Source: an uncultured Acidobacteriia bacterium (GTDB taxonomy: Bacteria; Acidobacteriota; Terriglobia; Bryobacterales; Bryobacteraceae). From it: a stretch of 59,863 bases of DNA. Made by a program: the position numbers and the translations under genes. Of this stretch, positions 10,099-30,699 are shown piece by piece (positions within the stretch are counted from its first letter, which is position 1; every line of letters begins with the position of its first letter). Location of the stretch: assembly GCA_903923395.1 (NCBI GenBank), contig CAIXXM010000079.1, forward strand, positions 1 to 59,863, read 5' to 3'. The notes under the pieces are model-generated. The model was not told where the DNA came from, did no database searches, and worked only from the letters and a program-made list of their open reading frames with translations.

Positions 10099-10644
10099 AT
10101 GTGGCTGAAAGCTGCACTGGCGCTGGGTCTGGTGGTAAGTACGGGAGTATCCGTACCCGATATTGAGGGCGGAATGCAGCGGCCTTTCCAGGTGAGGAAA
10201 GGCGGCAAGGCAAACGTGTTGTTCTTCGTAACGCATGATTGCCCGATCTCGAACGCCTTCGCGAAAGAGATAGCCCGCATCTGCCCGGAGTATGCCGCAA
10301 AGGGTATCGGTTGCTCGCTGGTTTATACAGACCCTTCGCTGACCGATGAGCAGGCCGGGAAGCATGCCGCGGATTACTCGCATGGTAACTACCCAAAGAT
10401 TGTGGACCGCAAGCACTTACTGGTAAAGGCCGCGGGTGCAACGATAACTCCGGAGGCGGTGATTGTGGATGCGGCGGGAAAAATTCGCTACCGGGGCCGC
10501 ATCGATGACTCCTTCGCGGCACTGGGCCAGCCGAGAAGACCGGTAAGAAATGCGGATGTGCGGAACGCGCTGGATGATTTGATTGCAGGTAGAGAAGTTA
10601 GAGCAGCTGAAACCAGGGCGCTTGGATGTTATATCACGCCTTGA
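10099..10644 (+). CDS. Thioredoxin-fold (redoxin) protein
   Basis: The start at ATG 10099 gives 181 residues; a longer extension to 10030 lies inside the preceding gene. A short hydrophobic N-terminus (LKAALALGLVVSTGVSV) suggests export. The redoxin active-site region is THDCPISNAF (Cys48, CxxS), after the core strand NVLFFV. Later elements are the VDAAGKIRYRGRIDD strand pair and a C-terminal helix (VRNALDDLIAG). A single Cys with Ser at the resolving position points to a peroxiredoxin- or thiol-transfer-like role, not a classical disulfide reductase. It probably works with the upstream haem/copper protein, for example in cofactor or disulfide handling (inference from position). The 3' end faces the palindromic repeat at 10653. 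Confidence 0.75.
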   Translation: MWLKAALALGLVVSTGVSVPDIEGGMQRPFQVRKGGKANVLFFVTHDCPISNAFAKEIARICPEYAAKGIGCSLVYTDPSLTDEQAGKHAADYSHGNYPKIVDRKHLLVKAAGATITPEAVIVDAAGKIRYRGRIDDSFAALGQPRRPVRNADVRNALDDLIAGREVRAAETRALGCYITP

Positions 10645-10652
10645 TGGGTTAC

Positions 10653-10814
10653 TGGAGTGCTTCACACAGAATGGTGATTATTCCAATGCCTGGAATAATC
10701 AGTCGCAATCAGTTGTGATGTTGGACACGCGCCAGAATGGCGCACGAACATCAAGCGATAGTGGTCCCATTTCCGGCCTGAAAAATCAACCACATTTGTG
10801 AATCAGACCATTAG
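10653..10814 (+). repeat. Palindromic intergenic element, short copy (A)
   Basis: A 162-bp element that fills the space between the convergent redoxin and sensor-kinase genes. It shares its left end (from TGGAGTGCTTCACACAG), middle and right end (to AATCAGACCATTAG) with the longer copy at 28675-29186. It holds three inverted repeats: 10675-10701 (TGATTATTCCA / TGGAATAATCA, loop ATGCC), 10703-10718 (TCGCAA / TTGTGA, loop TCAG, with one G-T pair), and 10729-10743 (GCGCCA / TGGCGC, loop GAA). Relative to the long copy it lacks most of the internal 180-bp unit. It has no credible ORF, no obvious terminal inverted repeat and no target-site duplication. It could be a REP-like or bidirectional-terminator element, or the remains of an insertion sequence. 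Confidence 0.75.
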
Positions 10815-10816
10815 CA

Positions 10817-13261
10817 TTAGCGGGAAGCCATCTTCACCGCAATCAATTCCTGCAATGTAGCCAGCAGGGTTTCCGGGCCGAAGGGCTTGGCGAGAACCGC
10901 GCCTTCCAGCACCAGATTGTCGCGCAATAAATCCAACTGGCCGGGGAAGCCGGTCATGAACAGCACCTTCAGTTCGGGCCGCAGTTGGCGCAACCGCTTG
11001 GCGAGTTCCGTTCCCCGCATGGCAGGCATCACCACATCCGTCAACAAGACGTCAATCACGCCACTGTGCCGCTGGCCGAAATGGATTGCCGAAGCCGGCG
11101 AGATGGCCTCGAGAACGGTGTAGCCCGCGCCCCGGAGCAAGTCCGCGACGAGGACACGGACGTCCGTGCGGTCCTCCACCAGCAGGATGGTGGCGGCACG
11201 ATGCTCCAAACGCAGTTCTTCCACTTCCCGGGAAGGTTCGATGGAGGATAACGGCTGCGAAGCGGCGGCGGGAAAGTGTAATTCAAAAGCTGTACCGCGG
11301 CCAATTTCTGTGCTGATGGTAATCCAGCCATTGCATTGGCGCACGATGCCGTACACAATCGAGAGGCCGAGCCCTGTGCCGTTGTAATCCTGCTTGGTGG
11401 TGAAGAACGGGTCAAAAATTCGGGGGAGCGTGTCTACATGTATGCCGGTGCCGGTATCCCGCGCGGTCAGGACCACGTGAGGACCGCGTACGGCACCAAT
11501 CTGCACTGCCGCCTGGCCTGGATTTAAACTTTGCAGTGAGGTTTCCAGCACGAAACGGCCGCCTTCCAGCATGGCATCCCGGGCATTGGCGGCGAGATTC
11601 ATGAGGACCTGTTCCATTTGTCCGGTATCCACGAGGACCAACGGGAGTTCGGGAGCCAGGATCAACTCCAGTTCGATGTCATCGCCCAGCAAACGCCGGA
11701 GCATATCCGCCGCGTTCGAGACGATGCCGTTCAAATCACGCACGGCAGGCTCAATTTGCTGTTTGCGGCTGAAGGTGAGCAACTGGCGGGTTAGATCAGC
11801 CGCCGCGTTGCCGGCCTTCAGGACTTTCGAAATCTGCTGGGCCACACGTGTTTCTCTGGGCAACTGTTTCAATAGACTTTCGCTGTAGCCATTGATCACG
11901 GTGAGAAGGTTATTGAAGTCATGCGCAATGCCTCCAGCGAGGCGGCCGACGACCTCCATCTTCTGGGATTGGCGCAACTGCTCTTCGAGGCGGTTCCGTT
12001 CATCCTCCGCAGCCTGGCGCGCGGTTTGATCGCGGAGAATGCCAAGCACACCGTCGATCACACCATCGCCGCCGCGCAGAGGAATCAGGCGGTATTCCAC
12101 GGGATGAACGCCCAGCAGTTTCTGTTCCGTGATGGTGACGGCTCCGGTTTTCAACACGGTTTGCACGTCATTGAGATGAGTCTCCGATTCGGCGAGCGAG
12201 AGCACCAGGTCGTCGGTGCGGCGGACCGTGTAGGGAGCGGTGACCACGGACTGCAACTCGCCCTGACGGCTCAGCAAATAGATGGTGTCCGGCAGAAGTT
12301 CCACCAATCCGCGGTAATGCTCTTCGCTTTCACGCAAGGCGGCCTTGGCATCCACGAGTCGAGAGTGGTCCCGCCGCAGTGATATCACCAGTAAAACAGT
12401 GCAGATCAACAGGCAGATCAGAGTGACCAGTCCCGACACAAAGGCCTGCTCTCTGCGACGTGACTTCGAGAGGTTATTGATCGCTTCCAGATTGAGGAGC
12501 GGATAGAAGCTCCAGCCCTCAATGCGCGTGTTGATGGCACCCTCATCAATCATGCGCCGGATTTCATCGCGGATGGCGCGGGCTGCTGGGGCGGCGCGGA
12601 AGTTCGAGGCCAGTCCGAGATAGCCCTGCGGCACTGGCACGGAAAGGATTCTAACCGGGCGTTTCACCTGCAACTCCATCAGGGCGCGGGAGGCTGAGAA
12701 CTGGTCAATGAACGCTGCGTCTGCGGCACCCGAAACCACGGCTTCAATCGTTGCCTGCGGCGTGGCACCCGGCACCAAAGCGGAGGAGGGAAAGTACTTG
12801 TGGAGATTCACGCGGTGGATTTCGAAATCCGGGTGGCTGATGCGGCGTCCGGTGAGGTCGAGATAAGAGCTGAAGGGGCTGTCCGCCAGGACCAGCAGGC
12901 AATATTCCGTCACCAGGAAGGGGTCAGAGATGAAAATCTGCCGGCGGCGTTCCTCCAGCACGGTCATGGCGACCCAGAGATCCGTTTCCCCGCTGATCAG
13001 AGAAGGAATGCCGGGGCTGGCGGATTGGGTCCATTCCAGGCGGATGCCCTGCTGGCGGGCGGCTTCACGGATTACCCCGACTGCGAGACCTTCCGCCTGA
13101 CCACTCTTTTCCGATGGAAAATGAAGCGGCGGGTCGCTGCCAAAGCCGATGCGGTAAACACGATCCTCCACCGCGGCCGGGCGGGAGTAAATGGCGAACC
13201 CCAACACCGCCATCAAGGCAAGCAGCAGCGCGGCAGTCTGAAACTTAGCAGACTGGGACAT
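10817..13261 (-). CDS. Hybrid sensor histidine kinase with periplasmic solute-binding sensor
   Basis: The start is placed at ATG 13261 (814 residues); a TTG eight codons earlier is also possible. Order: a signal/TM segment ([16 protein letters not shown]), a periplasmic SBP_bac_3-type domain (about 35-260, with [13 protein letters not shown] and [12 protein letters not shown]), a second TM ([18 protein letters not shown]), a PAS-like domain ([17 protein letters not shown]), a HisKA domain with the phospho-His in GGIAHDFNN, a HATPase with N-box ([10 protein letters not shown]) and G-boxes (DTGTGI, GTGLGLS), and a C-terminal receiver with phospho-acceptor Asp in LLTDVVMP. It probably senses an amino acid or similar small solute. 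No separate response regulator is adjacent, so output must go to an unlinked partner. Convergent with the redoxin gene across repeat A. Confidence 0.9.
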
Positions 13262-27449: not shown

Positions 27450-28670
27450 ATGGCCGCGGCCGCACTGCGGACTTATTGCTTTGTCCTCGCCGGCCTGACG
27501 CTGCTTGCCTGGAGCATCGGACTGGCAGACCGTCTGCTCTTACATTGGAATTTCCCCTGGGATTGGCCGCTGATGTATCTGGCGCCCCACTTCTCAGACC
27601 TCACCGATTACCGTCATATGATCCAAACCCTGTACCTCGGCGGGTCAGCCGTGGCTACAGGGCAGATGTATAACTATCCAGCGCCGGCGCTGTTCGTCTA
27701 TTGGTTCTTCCTCGCCCTCTTCCAGGAGCCAGTGGGCGCATTTCTAACATTCTCCATGGCGGTCTGGGGAAGTGCGTTCTTGCTCTTGCAGCGAATCGTG
27801 AAAGGGACCGGCTGGATTCTTGCGTCCGTCTTACTCACCTGCCTGCTGTGCTATCCGTTCCACTATGTGATGGACAGGGGGAACATTGAGATTGTCATCT
27901 TTAGCTTCGTCGCGGGTGGGCTGGTCTGTTTCTTACGACAGCGCTACCTTTGGGCAGCCCTGTTATTCGCCGGTGCCGCCTGTATCAAGCCCTTTCCCGT
28001 TTTGTTCTTCTATCTTTTTCTTACCCGCAAACGTTACAAGGAGATCCTCCTCGGCCTCGCCATGATCTTCGTCGTGAACATTGCAGCGCTGGTGTGGCTG
28101 GGCCCGACGATATCCGAAGCGCTGGCCTCATTGCGGCCCGGAACCACGCAGTTTTTTGAGGACTACGTGATGGGTTACCGGGAAGGCGAGATCCAATACG
28201 ACCATTGCTTCTTCGCGGTGGTCAAGCAGGTCATCCGGCTGGCCTCTGGATGGGCGGACCCCGAAGATATCACCGATACCATCGCCCTTGCCTACAAGGC
28301 CTACATGGCCGCCGCGACGGTGTTTGTTCTCTGGCTGGCAAAGCGATTCTGGAAGCAGCCGGTGTTGAATCAGATCTTCTTCGTGATCCTGATCACGATC
28401 ACCGTCCCGCCGGTTTCCTATGACTACACGCTCATCTACGTCGCCGTGCTTTGGGGTGTATATGTAACTTACCTGACCAGCCGAGCAGAAGTAGAAGCAC
28501 CCTTGCACTTTCTTATCCCGATGGCCATTCTGATGACACCGCAGTCCTGGCTGCGGACGGAACATGTGGCTCTGGGTGGACAGGTGAAGGCTTTCTGTCT
28601 TGCCTATCTCCTCATCCAAGCCATGCGGCTGCGCATGCAGTCCCAGCGCCTTGATGGTGGAAACATTTAA
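27450..28670 (+). CDS. GT87-type polyprenyl-phosphate-dependent membrane glycosyltransferase (putative)
   Basis: The 406-residue protein is almost all TM helices (about ten). YNYPAPALFVYWFF, MDRGNIEIVIFSF, GAACIKPFPVLFF and the late VPPVSYDYTLIY match the pattern of DUF2029/GT87 mannosyl-transferase-like proteins, where the RGN and KPFP stretches recur. It probably moves a sugar from a lipid-linked donor at the membrane. Starting 5 bp after the previous gene, it closes the hpnH operon, which could link it to glycosylation of hopanoids or to an unrelated envelope glycan; this is inference. Its 3' end faces the palindromic repeat B. Confidence 0.75.
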   Translation: MAAAALRTYCFVLAGLTLLAWSIGLADRLLLHWNFPWDWPLMYLAPHFSDLTDYRHMIQTLYLGGSAVATGQMYNYPAPALFVYWFFLALFQEPVGAFLTFSMAVWGSAFLLLQRIVKGTGWILASVLLTCLLCYPFHYVMDRGNIEIVIFSFVAGGLVCFLRQRYLWAALLFAGAACIKPFPVLFFYLFLTRKRYKEILLGLAMIFVVNIAALVWLGPTISEALASLRPGTTQFFEDYVMGYREGEIQYDHCFFAVVKQVIRLASGWADPEDITDTIALAYKAYMAAATVFVLWLAKRFWKQPVLNQIFFVILITITVPPVSYDYTLIYVAVLWGVYVTYLTSRAEVEAPLHFLIPMAILMTPQSWLRTEHVALGGQVKAFCLAYLLIQAMRLRMQSQRLDGGNI

Positions 28671-28674
28671 CCAG

Positions 28675-29186
28675 TGGAGTGCTTCACACAGAATGGTGTT
28701 TATTCCAATGTCTGGAATAAACAGTCACAATCAGTTGTGATGTTGGACACGCTGCTACCAACCGCGTTTCGGCGGGGACAGGGCAGACGCGGTTGCCAGC
28801 CGCGTGTTGGGTTGTGGCCGTGGCGGCCGCACAAGTGGATAAATACACCGCCTGTTTCGGGAAGTTGTCTTTGCCTGGGCACGCGCGCCAGAATGGCGCA
28901 CGAACATCAAGCGATAGATACAGATGGGCCCAGGAACGTGAGCGTATTCCAGGGTGTCCCATTTCCGGCCTGAACAAAGCCGCGTGTTGGGCTGTGGCCG
29001 TGCCGGCCACACAAGTAGATAATTACACCGCCTGTTTCGGGAAGTTGTCTTTGTCTGGGCACGCCCGCCAGAATGGCGCACGAACATCAAGCGATAGACA
29101 CAGATGGGCCCAGGAACATGAGCGTATTCCAGGGTGTCCCATTTCCGGCCTGAACAATCCACCAAATTTGTGAATCAGACCATTAG
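28675..29186 (+). repeat. Palindromic intergenic element, long copy (B)
   Basis: A 512-bp relative of the element at 10653-10814, in the same orientation and also lying between two convergent genes. The left end (28675-28750) matches copy A closely. It carries hairpins at 28697-28723 (TGTTTATTCCA / TGGAATAAACA, loop ATGTC) and 28725-28740 (TCACAA / TTGTGA, loop TCAG). The first stem differs from copy A at one base pair on both arms. The interior contains two tandem 180-bp units (28799-29158), each with a GCGCCA-type hairpin. The right end (to 29186) again matches copy A. ORFs of 126 (+) and 136 (-) codons run through it only because the unit length is a multiple of three; they are not called genes. 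Confidence 0.78.
28799..29158 (+). repeat. Two tandem 180-bp units inside element B
   Basis: Unit 1 is 28799-28978 and unit 2 is 28979-29158, an exact period of 180 bp. Both start GCCGCGTGTTGGG, contain CCGCCTGTTTCGGGAAG, GAATGGCGCACGAACATC and CAGATGGGCCCAGGAAC, and end CCGGCCTGAACAA. They differ at scattered single bases, so the duplication is not brand new. The internal hairpin is 28885-28899 (GCGCCA/TGGCGC) in unit 1; in unit 2 the outermost pair is lost (C-C mismatch at 29065/29079). Copy A keeps only fragments of one unit. Confidence 0.85.
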
Positions 29187-29205: not shown

Positions 29206-30699
29206 TCACTTCTCCGGAGAGCGCCGCCGGTAGAGGGTGTAGCGGCCAAGGTGTCCAGCAGGCTGAAACCTTTCCAGCACAGCGTTCAGCACGTCGCGGC
29301 CGGGCACCAGGACAGGGTATTTCACCGTATAAGTGACGGGAAACATCACGATGCCCGAAATCGCCGCAGGAGTGTCGACGCCGCAGCAATCCGCGGGGTC
29401 CATAATGACCCAATCTGCTTTTTGCAGATTCTGAATTTTCCGCTGCGCGCCTTCCGTGCCCGAGACATCAATCATCCAGGTATAGTAATCGCGCAGGACA
29501 CTTCCGGTGCGGGTCAGATAACTGTTGAGCGACTTATCCGTAGGGAAGGGCGTCGCTATCTTCGTCAGTCCCAGTAGCGCCGGATAGTCTTCTTCGGGCC
29601 GTTCCTTCTCCAGCGCATCGAACAGCGGTTTCAGATTGGCTTGATCTTCGCTTGAAAGTGTTGCCAATAGCTGGCTCTGTGTCTTCGTCAGCCGTTCATG
29701 AAAGTACATCGCCCGTGGCAGCAGAGCCAAGTGACCCGGTTCTTTGTTAAAGTGAATGCCGCCGCCGAATAGGATTGCCAGTCCAGCGAGATAGGCCGGG
29801 GTGAACCAGCGGGGAAGCCCGCGAATCAAAGTCAATGCCAATAAGATAGCGGTGATGCCGTTGAAGAGCACATGGCCGATGTCACAACGTCCCAATGCAG
29901 GCGACACGTAAACCGCCGCGAGAGCAGCCATGGCCAGCAGTTTGGGAAGTTCCTGGCGGCGTGTTCGGGCCAAACCCGCGGGCAGGATCCAAACAACGGT
30001 TCCAATATAGAGAAGAATGTAAGGAGCCGGCTGGACGACAAAGTTGAAAAATCCGCCGGAGAACTTGAACAAACTGTCAAACGCGGCGCGTCCGAAGATT
30101 ATTGACAGCATGGCAGGTCCTGCGGCTAAACCGTATACTGCGAACCATGTACGGGACGCCAGCAGATAGATTCCCGCGCCTGCGGTAAAGGCAGCGCCAG
30201 CCTCAGGCGAGATACTCCAGGCGGCCACACTTCCAACGGCGGCCATGGCCAGAGTGCCCTTCCGGACGAGTAACATCAATAACCAGAGTGCTGCCACGAA
30301 CCGCAGCAGCGTGTAGTTCATGCCGAGGGAAGGATTCAGCAGACAGACCCAAAGGATGCCGAAGATCCAGATCTTCCAGAGATTCCGTAATTCGAGTTGG
30401 GAGATGACTGCCCAGAGCATCCATAAGCCGGCCACTGTCGCGAGATCAACCGCGAGATAGTATCCGGCCTCCGCGGAAAGCCCTGCACTTTTCAGCAGCC
30501 ACGCGAGAGAAGCCGGGAAGTACACCATGAGTGGACCATAGGCGAACTCGAAGTCGCGATACGGCATATCTCCAAATTGCAGGGTTCGTTCGAGTTGTGG
30601 GAGAAAGTACGCGGATTCCCGGAAGTACTGCGGCACGGACCACGCTAACAGCTGTTCCGTCACTAGATAGGCCAGGCTCACGGCAACAGCGAGATACAA
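29206..30699 (-). CDS. Membrane glycosyltransferase-like protein, downstream part after an in-frame TAG
   Basis: This is a 497-codon membrane protein that could begin at TTG 30699, but this TTG directly follows a TAG (30700-30702) in the same reading frame as the 85-codon segment upstream. Several TM helices are visible, with the external-loop text RESAYFLPQLERTLQ and MPYRDFEFAYGPL typical of GT39/ArnT-like lipid-linked sugar transferases. A soluble C-terminal domain of about 170 residues follows. No Shine-Dalgarno precedes the TTG. The simplest reading is that this and the upstream segment were one protein of about 583 codons, now interrupted by a nonsense codon. It is the last gene of the sugar operon. 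Confidence 0.68.
   Translation of the reverse strand: MYLAVAVSLAYLVTEQLLAWSVPQYFRESAYFLPQLERTLQFGDMPYRDFEFAYGPLMVYFPASLAWLLKSAGLSAEAGYYLAVDLATVAGLWMLWAVISQLELRNLWKIWIFGILWVCLLNPSLGMNYTLLRFVAALWLLMLLVRKGTLAMAAVGSVAAWSISPEAGAAFTAGAGIYLLASRTWFAVYGLAAGPAMLSIIFGRAAFDSLFKFSGGFFNFVVQPAPYILLYIGTVVWILPAGLARTRRQELPKLLAMAALAAVYVSPALGRCDIGHVLFNGITAILLALTLIRGLPRWFTPAYLAGLAILFGGGIHFNKEPGHLALLPRAMYFHERLTKTQSQLLATLSSEDQANLKPLFDALEKERPEEDYPALLGLTKIATPFPTDKSLNSYLTRTGSVLRDYYTWMIDVSGTEGAQRKIQNLQKADWVIMDPADCCGVDTPAAISGIVMFPVTYTVKYPVLVPGRDVLNAVLERFQPAGHLGRYTLYRRRSPEK

Follow-up and report, generated by a model that had tools for sequence, protein, structure and literature searches.

A probable IS630-derived MITE family with an embedded REP in an uncultured Acidobacteriia bacterium

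Two palindromic elements, here called A and B, lie in a 59,863-nucleotide stretch of DNA (the window, contig C79 of its genome) from an uncultured Acidobacteriia bacterium. Judged by their sequence, they are very probably members of a non-autonomous MITE family derived from IS630. The family is new, and its kind, the IS630-type MITE, is already known. One of the stems shared by A and B is a REP embedded in the MITE; this is the interesting part, the rest being ordinary in kind. Attention had been drawn to the elements by a base pair that reads A-T in one left-end hairpin and T-A in the other, from which selection on folding had been proposed. Viewed across the copies in the genome, this compensatory pair is not good evidence for such selection. 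A compensatory pair taken from two copies of a repeat can mislead: further copies here remove most of the signal.

Anatomy of the two elements

The two copies, their 11-bp arms, loops, and second and third stems are present in the sequence as originally described; all coordinates given here refer to the plus strand. B, the long form, spans 28674-29183 and is followed by a TA at 29184-29185, the two bases ahead of it (28672-28673) being CA, not TA. A (10652-10811) is a short, internally deleted form, as judged against the other copies, and lies between TA dinucleotides at 10650-10651 and 10812-10813. The left-end hairpin occupies 10675-10701 in A, where the arm 10675-10685 (TGATTATTCCA) pairs with 10691-10701 (TGGAATAATCA) around the loop ATGCC, and 28697-28723 in B, where 28697-28707 (TGTTTATTCCA) pairs with 28713-28723 (TGGAATAAACA) around ATGTC. 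A second small stem follows, TCGCAA/TTGTGA at 10703-10718 in A and TCACAA/TTGTGA at 28725-28740 in B. The third stem, GCGCCA/TGGCGC with the loop GAA, is that of the REP core CGCGCCAGAATGGCGCACGAAC, which is found at 10728-10749 in A and twice in B (28884-28905 and, with one mismatch, 29064-29085). B also contains two tandem 180-bp middle units, 28798-28977 and 28978-29157, the latter 95 % identical to the former. Both elements close with an inverted repeat that terminates in TAG, at 10795-10814 and 29167-29186, respectively.

That the elements sit between convergent genes is borne out by our gene calls, made with a codon-usage script of our own for which 30 long ORFs from the window served as the training set. 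A is enclosed by genes at 10099-10644 (plus strand) and 10817-13261 (minus strand), B by genes at 27450-28670 (plus) and 29206-30699 (minus). The last of these is a 497-aa ORF to which no Pfam or NCBIfam family matched at an E value of 0.001. Both elements fold better than their shuffled versions (z = -3.32 for A and -3.39 for B).

A dispersed family in one genome

Within the 6.15 Mb of the genome, present as 169 contigs, B matched 71 pieces and A 91, counts that include free REP cores. Thirty-four loci were compared. Both ends are present in 16 copies, which measure 164-514 bp and have no transposase inside. The ends are imperfect inverted repeats of about 33 bp, and none of 20000 shuffles scored as high as the 33-nt left consensus end against the reverse-complemented right one. 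In one orientation the copies begin with CTAG-TGGAGTGCTTCACACAGAATGG and finish with TTTGTGAATCAGACCA-CTAG, the middle varying in length. With up to 3 mismatches allowed, the right end occurs at 18 places in the genome and its reversed control at none. A mobile element had been among the functions listed for A and B, and this suggestion is upheld.

The family was absent from the 60 relatives searched, 18 of them of the same genus, and plasmid and phage records gave no match. An exact left-end 18-mer was found in GTDB genomes on a single Bacteroidetes contig, where it lies at the contig end and the next bases differ; it was taken as a chance match. An exact 16-base piece of the right end occurs in 24 stretches of viral contigs (L223-L246), possibly also by chance.

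The link to IS630

The tips of the MITE, CTAGTGGNNTGNTTCACA, recur in a genome from another genus of the taxonomic family, as an inverted pair on either side of IS630 transposase ORFs. In that genome (G144), CTAGTGTAGTGCTTCACA and its inverted partner span 1166 bp with two ORFs between them, which reach 155.6 and 99.0 bits with NF033545 (cut-off 100) and 74.2 bits with PF13358 (cut-off 28.6). Since the tips served as the search pattern, finding them again carries no independent weight, unlike the IS630 transposase that they turned out to flank. Farther in than the tips, foreign IS630 ends bear little resemblance to those of the MITE: in 12 comparisons the best scores were reached by 59 and 149 of 5000 shuffles, and the others by at least 405.

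The tip pattern was found in 20 of 150 genomes of the taxonomic family, our own included. Seventeen of the 20, G144 among them, have it at one to three places each, which is the chance level, 22 genomes matching the reversed control. The remaining three stand out, namely our own genome with 33 places, G163 with 9 and G184 with 14 (reversed controls 0, 0 and 1). Of the 23 loci in G163 and G184, 16 were fetched. In each of these the contig breaks off inside the element after at most about 0.7 kb, and in 15 after no more than about 140 bp, a pattern expected of a multicopy element. The stretch that follows the tip in these loci is similar to that of G144, as judged by eye.

In the assembled own genome, no IS630 gene carries the ends of the MITE. 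The single PF13358 match there, a gene on contig C52, was considered as a parent and lacks these ends. At up to one mismatch, all matches to the tip pattern in this genome are ends of known MITE copies, and no parent was found.

Target sites and the 3' ends of genes

A lack of preference for the 3' ends of genes had been named beforehand as speaking against selection on folding; the preference is real. Of 32 loci examined, 8 could not be classified; 16 of the 24 others lie in convergent gaps, as compared to 9 of the 41 gaps of the window (p = 0.0005), a background that includes the gaps of A and B themselves and falls to 7 of 39 without them. One entry (L003) rests on a wrong right-end match, and its removal leaves 16 of 23. 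L008 has a short, weak gene on its left, and the right ends of L002 and L026 are decayed. In 6 left ends and 7 right ends the terminal TAG coincides with the stop codon of the neighbouring gene.

CTAG is very scarce in this DNA: base composition predicts about 220 occurrences in the window, and 10 are present (approximately 22-fold fewer); two of the 10 lie at stop codons and four outside genes. It borders 12 of 27 left ends and 10 of 20 right ends of the MITE. A TA occupies the expected position in 17 of 27 left and 15 of 20 right ends, and both edges have it in 7 of the 16 copies with both ends. Three loci fit a TA duplication without the need for mutation: L025 (TTAG/CTAG), L004 (CTAG/CTAT) and L010, with CTAA on its right. 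At a CTAG target, the 2-bp duplication of IS630 and a 4-bp duplication as in MITEPsy1 give the same result. IS630 itself reportedly prefers CTAG, going by the title of a paper of Tenzen and Ohtsubo from 1991.

The stop position of the peptidase gene beside L004 is shared by three relatives of the same genus, which have TAA instead of TAG and lack the element; this amounts to half an empty site, the other flank being without a match. No two-sided empty site was seen, and for B none of the 20 relatives searched gave a match.

Insertion into CTAG, a rare sequence that forms part of some TAG stops, can explain at least part of this bias towards gene 3' ends. In the related IS630 ends, however, CTAG is the stop of the upstream gene at only 3 of 20 flanks, and 10 of the 20 have a minus-strand neighbour, which argues against the idea that IS630 elements in general strongly favour stop codons. 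As these ends were found with a pattern containing CTAG, they are uninformative on the target itself. Given only 3 of 20, insertion preference alone may not account for the situation in our genome; harmful insertions may in addition have been lost. A sequence-level route is suggested by which a MITE lands at stop codons without harm to the genes, TAG being present at either edge.

The embedded REP and the RAYT gene

The suggestion that the elements contain a REP-like site proved correct: the third stem is a REP embedded in the MITE. Allowing up to 2 mismatches, its core is matched 105 times in the genome and never in 36 relatives, and the reversed control has no match. In the loci fetched, 122 cores were scored at up to 4 mismatches, 37 within MITE copies and 85 elsewhere, although two of the latter, at contig ends (L010 and L099), look MITE-borne. 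Nineteen of the 85 cores placed outside the MITE belong to inverted, REPIN-like doublets. The core ends in GAAC and has no GTAG tag; CGTC is present in the left half of the doublets. Tandem REP arrays are also seen, with a spacer that differs in each of them: C16:11887-12217, C21:216-560, C10:4283-4778, C73:8647-9004, C143:6553-6914 and C162:45426-45593, with units of about 50, 35, 64, 73, 113 and 73 bp, respectively. The array on C73 terminates in a right end of the MITE.

A RAYT gene is located on the plus strand of C20 (28280-28849; 1281-1850 in locus L170) and scores 81.9 bits with NF047646 (cut-off 80). It is followed by 8 related palindromes of the CACGTCATCCTGACGTGCG type. The palindromes beside the RAYT share the CACGTCAT type with the left doublet halves and do not reproduce the core exactly. 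This RAYT with its palindromes is a likely source of the REPINs in the genome. Directly ahead of the RAYT (about 1150-1230 in L170) there is a second repeat that ends in TTTGCCGGCTAG or GTTGCCGGCTAG; it also adjoins several MITE copies, on the left flank in L018, L019 and L020 and on the right flank in L051.

Divergence is lower in the REP core than in the columns on its left side (13/652 versus 228/4334 letters, p = 0.0001), the comparison being with left columns only; columns 146-160 (1.8 %) and 251-265 (2.0 %) are as little diverged as the core (2.0 %). The tips are also low, at about 3 %, in a profile that uses local alignments and thus favours low values there. Recognition, gene conversion or biased sampling could each account for the low divergence of the REP. 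A chimeric repeat, in which the IS630-type ends move the unit and the RAYT/REP system recognises or converts the embedded REP, so that the MITE acts as a vehicle spreading REPs to gene 3' ends, would be a further reading, which we regard as doubtful. A REP inside an IS630-type MITE allows two mobilisation routes to be compared in one genome.

The compensatory pair in other copies

Hairpins were compared in a set of 29 loci from which those known to lack a left end had been left out. Twenty-four could be aligned, one had no recognised left end, and in four (L016, L023, L026 and L107, with L016 and L107 identical in sequence) the hairpin is cut or deleted, that is, in 4 of the 28 left ends read. 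At the focal pair, the 24 copies have AU in 14, UA in 3 and UG in 1, and the pair is broken in 6 (AA in 4, AG and UU in 1 each). The compensatory change between A-T and T-A therefore stands for A versus B but not as a general rule. It is also the only two-sided, pair-keeping change among the 17 pairs, and 478 of 500 shuffles have at least one such pair. In the first stem, 14 single changes break a pair and 5 keep it, with 4 double changes keeping it, all at the focal pair; the second stem has 7 breaking and 2 keeping changes and one two-sided break. Together, 7 of 28 single changes preserve pairing, a fraction that does not exceed chance (P = 0.17, with 1/6 expected).

Substitutions are as frequent in the arms as in the loops: letters that differ from the majority number 39 of 814 in the arms, 13 of 216 in the loops (p = 0.48) and 36 of 789 in the flanks. 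Unpaired arm changes thus occur over the 24 copies at the loop rate, the observation that had been named beforehand as contradicting selection on folding, and this part of the original prediction is not sustained. Over the 34 loci, the hairpin columns (26-60) are 5-7 % divergent, similar to most of the element. A slight signal is seen in the percentage paired, which was matched by 13 of 500 shuffles, in the covariation score (39 of 500) and in the association between the two sides of the focal pair (p = 0.047). However, the shared ancestry of the copies can produce such values. The tree of 20 copies is star-like, with 2 of 17 inner branches well supported. The base-pair difference between A and B looks like inherited variation between copies or subfamilies, with no selection visible.

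Alternative explanations

If the element were kept for its RNA fold, as a small RNA, a protector of mRNA 3' ends or a bidirectional terminator, the compensatory changes would record selection on the stem. Consistent with this are the two-sided change carried by 4 copies, the slight statistical signal just described, the folding of both elements at z values of about -3.3 and the position of most classifiable sites in convergent gaps. Each of these has to be set against the broken focal pair in a quarter of the copies, the lack of any kept two-sided change at the other 16 pairs, the chance-level fate of single changes and a hairpin that diverges like the rest of the element and may be missing altogether. 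Moreover, no Rfam family reached its gathering score in the window, and a terminator scan found nothing within 10652-10811 or 28674-29183, the one weak site lying outside the elements, ahead of A (10613-10625). Neither a small RNA nor a bidirectional terminator, both of which had been proposed, finds a basis here, and we consider a conserved RNA fold very unlikely. A different account of the same base pair invokes template switching, i.e., quasi-palindrome correction (the mechanism is described in the consulted part of PMC8794818), by which stems would have been restored from A-A, once to A-T and once to T-A, without selection. Both corrected states and the A-A state do occur, the latter in four copies, so that a single step from a shared mismatch may have led to each perfect form. 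The star-like tree gives little support to any one order of events, and two ordinary substitutions in ancestral copies would give the same picture. Template switching is thus a possible mechanism for the base change that is compatible with an IS630-derived MITE, and has in our estimation a minor but real chance of being correct.

Two further proposals concern the agent that spreads the element. Were the RAYT to move it through its REP by HUH/Y1 transposition, the IS630-like ends would be incidental. The low divergence of the REP core and the RAYT on C20 with its adjoining array of related palindromes fit this idea, yet the copies are bounded by inverted repeats and not by the REP, other columns are equally little diverged, and most of the cores scored lie outside the MITE. 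This proposal strikes us as improbable. Virtually no weight is given to descent from an IS1182-type element, which was suggested by a locus on C28 where the start of such an element follows a MITE left end within about 100 bases. The copy on C111 has a different left flank without a left end, which refutes this parentage and marks the C28 copy as an insertion into a MITE copy. The two IS1182-type copies lie at about 101086-102523 on C111 and about 10618-10753 on C28, and both run off their contig ends. A truncated relic of a Y1/IS200-like transposase (C159:65-262) next to a MITE fragment was likewise discarded, because the junction is inside the MITE and not at its end, which points to a chance fusion; fragment and relic together make up C159:1-262 (L168) at the start of the contig.

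A possible course of events

For a MITE derived from IS630, a transposase of that family is predicted to bind the inverted ends in trans and to excise the element, which would then be inserted into a TA, mostly within CTAG. Because CTAG is so rare, and part of its occurrences fall within TAG stop codons, insertion there would leave TAG at both edges; such copies would consequently be nearly harmless and persist where genes end and in the gaps between convergent genes. The hairpin at the left end is part of what the copies inherit, and the pair that distinguishes A from B may have arisen in one or two steps, possibly via the A-A state. The third stem, embedded in the MITE, is a member of the REP/REPIN population of the genome itself.

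Comparison with known systems

No paper on this MITE family was found in the open-licence literature, among the matches listed from titles and the beginnings of abstracts. The closest relatives in kind are the IS630/Tc1-mariner elements, which, to go by the consulted part of a report on ISY100 (PMC2170065), share the inverted ends and the presumed TA target; the CTAG preference and the tips of an IS630 element from another genus of the family are further points in common. The MITE differs in having no transposase. Short, non-coding elements with inverted ends also include MITEPsy1 (PMC3189936) and Nezha and others (PMC3733652). In the consulted part of its report, MITEPsy1 likewise inserts at CTAG or YTAA; it is set apart from the MITE found here by its different sequence, its length of 100 nt and its listing, with a query, under IS5 with a 4-nt duplication (PMC3189936). 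The BrickBuilt MITE of Porphyromonas gingivalis (PMC4596501, consulted in part) is likewise intergenic and contains internal repeat units, in its case a 23-nt minisatellite, whereas in the present family the repeats are the REP core and, in copy B, the tandem 180-bp unit.

Hairpins shaped by template switching, as treated in the consulted part of PMC8794818, resemble the left-end hairpin in that a single event can give two-sided, pair-keeping changes, although here this is only a possibility. REP/REPIN systems with a RAYT, as far as they are covered in the consulted parts of PMC3116915 and PMC3733652, offer the best parallel to the third stem: a palindromic core in about 100 copies, inverted doublets and a RAYT next to which related palindromes form an array. 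The same parts of these two papers record REPs close to the 3' ends of convergent genes. The system described here departs from what they contain in that the core ends in GAAC without a GTAG tag and that part of the REP population resides inside a MITE.
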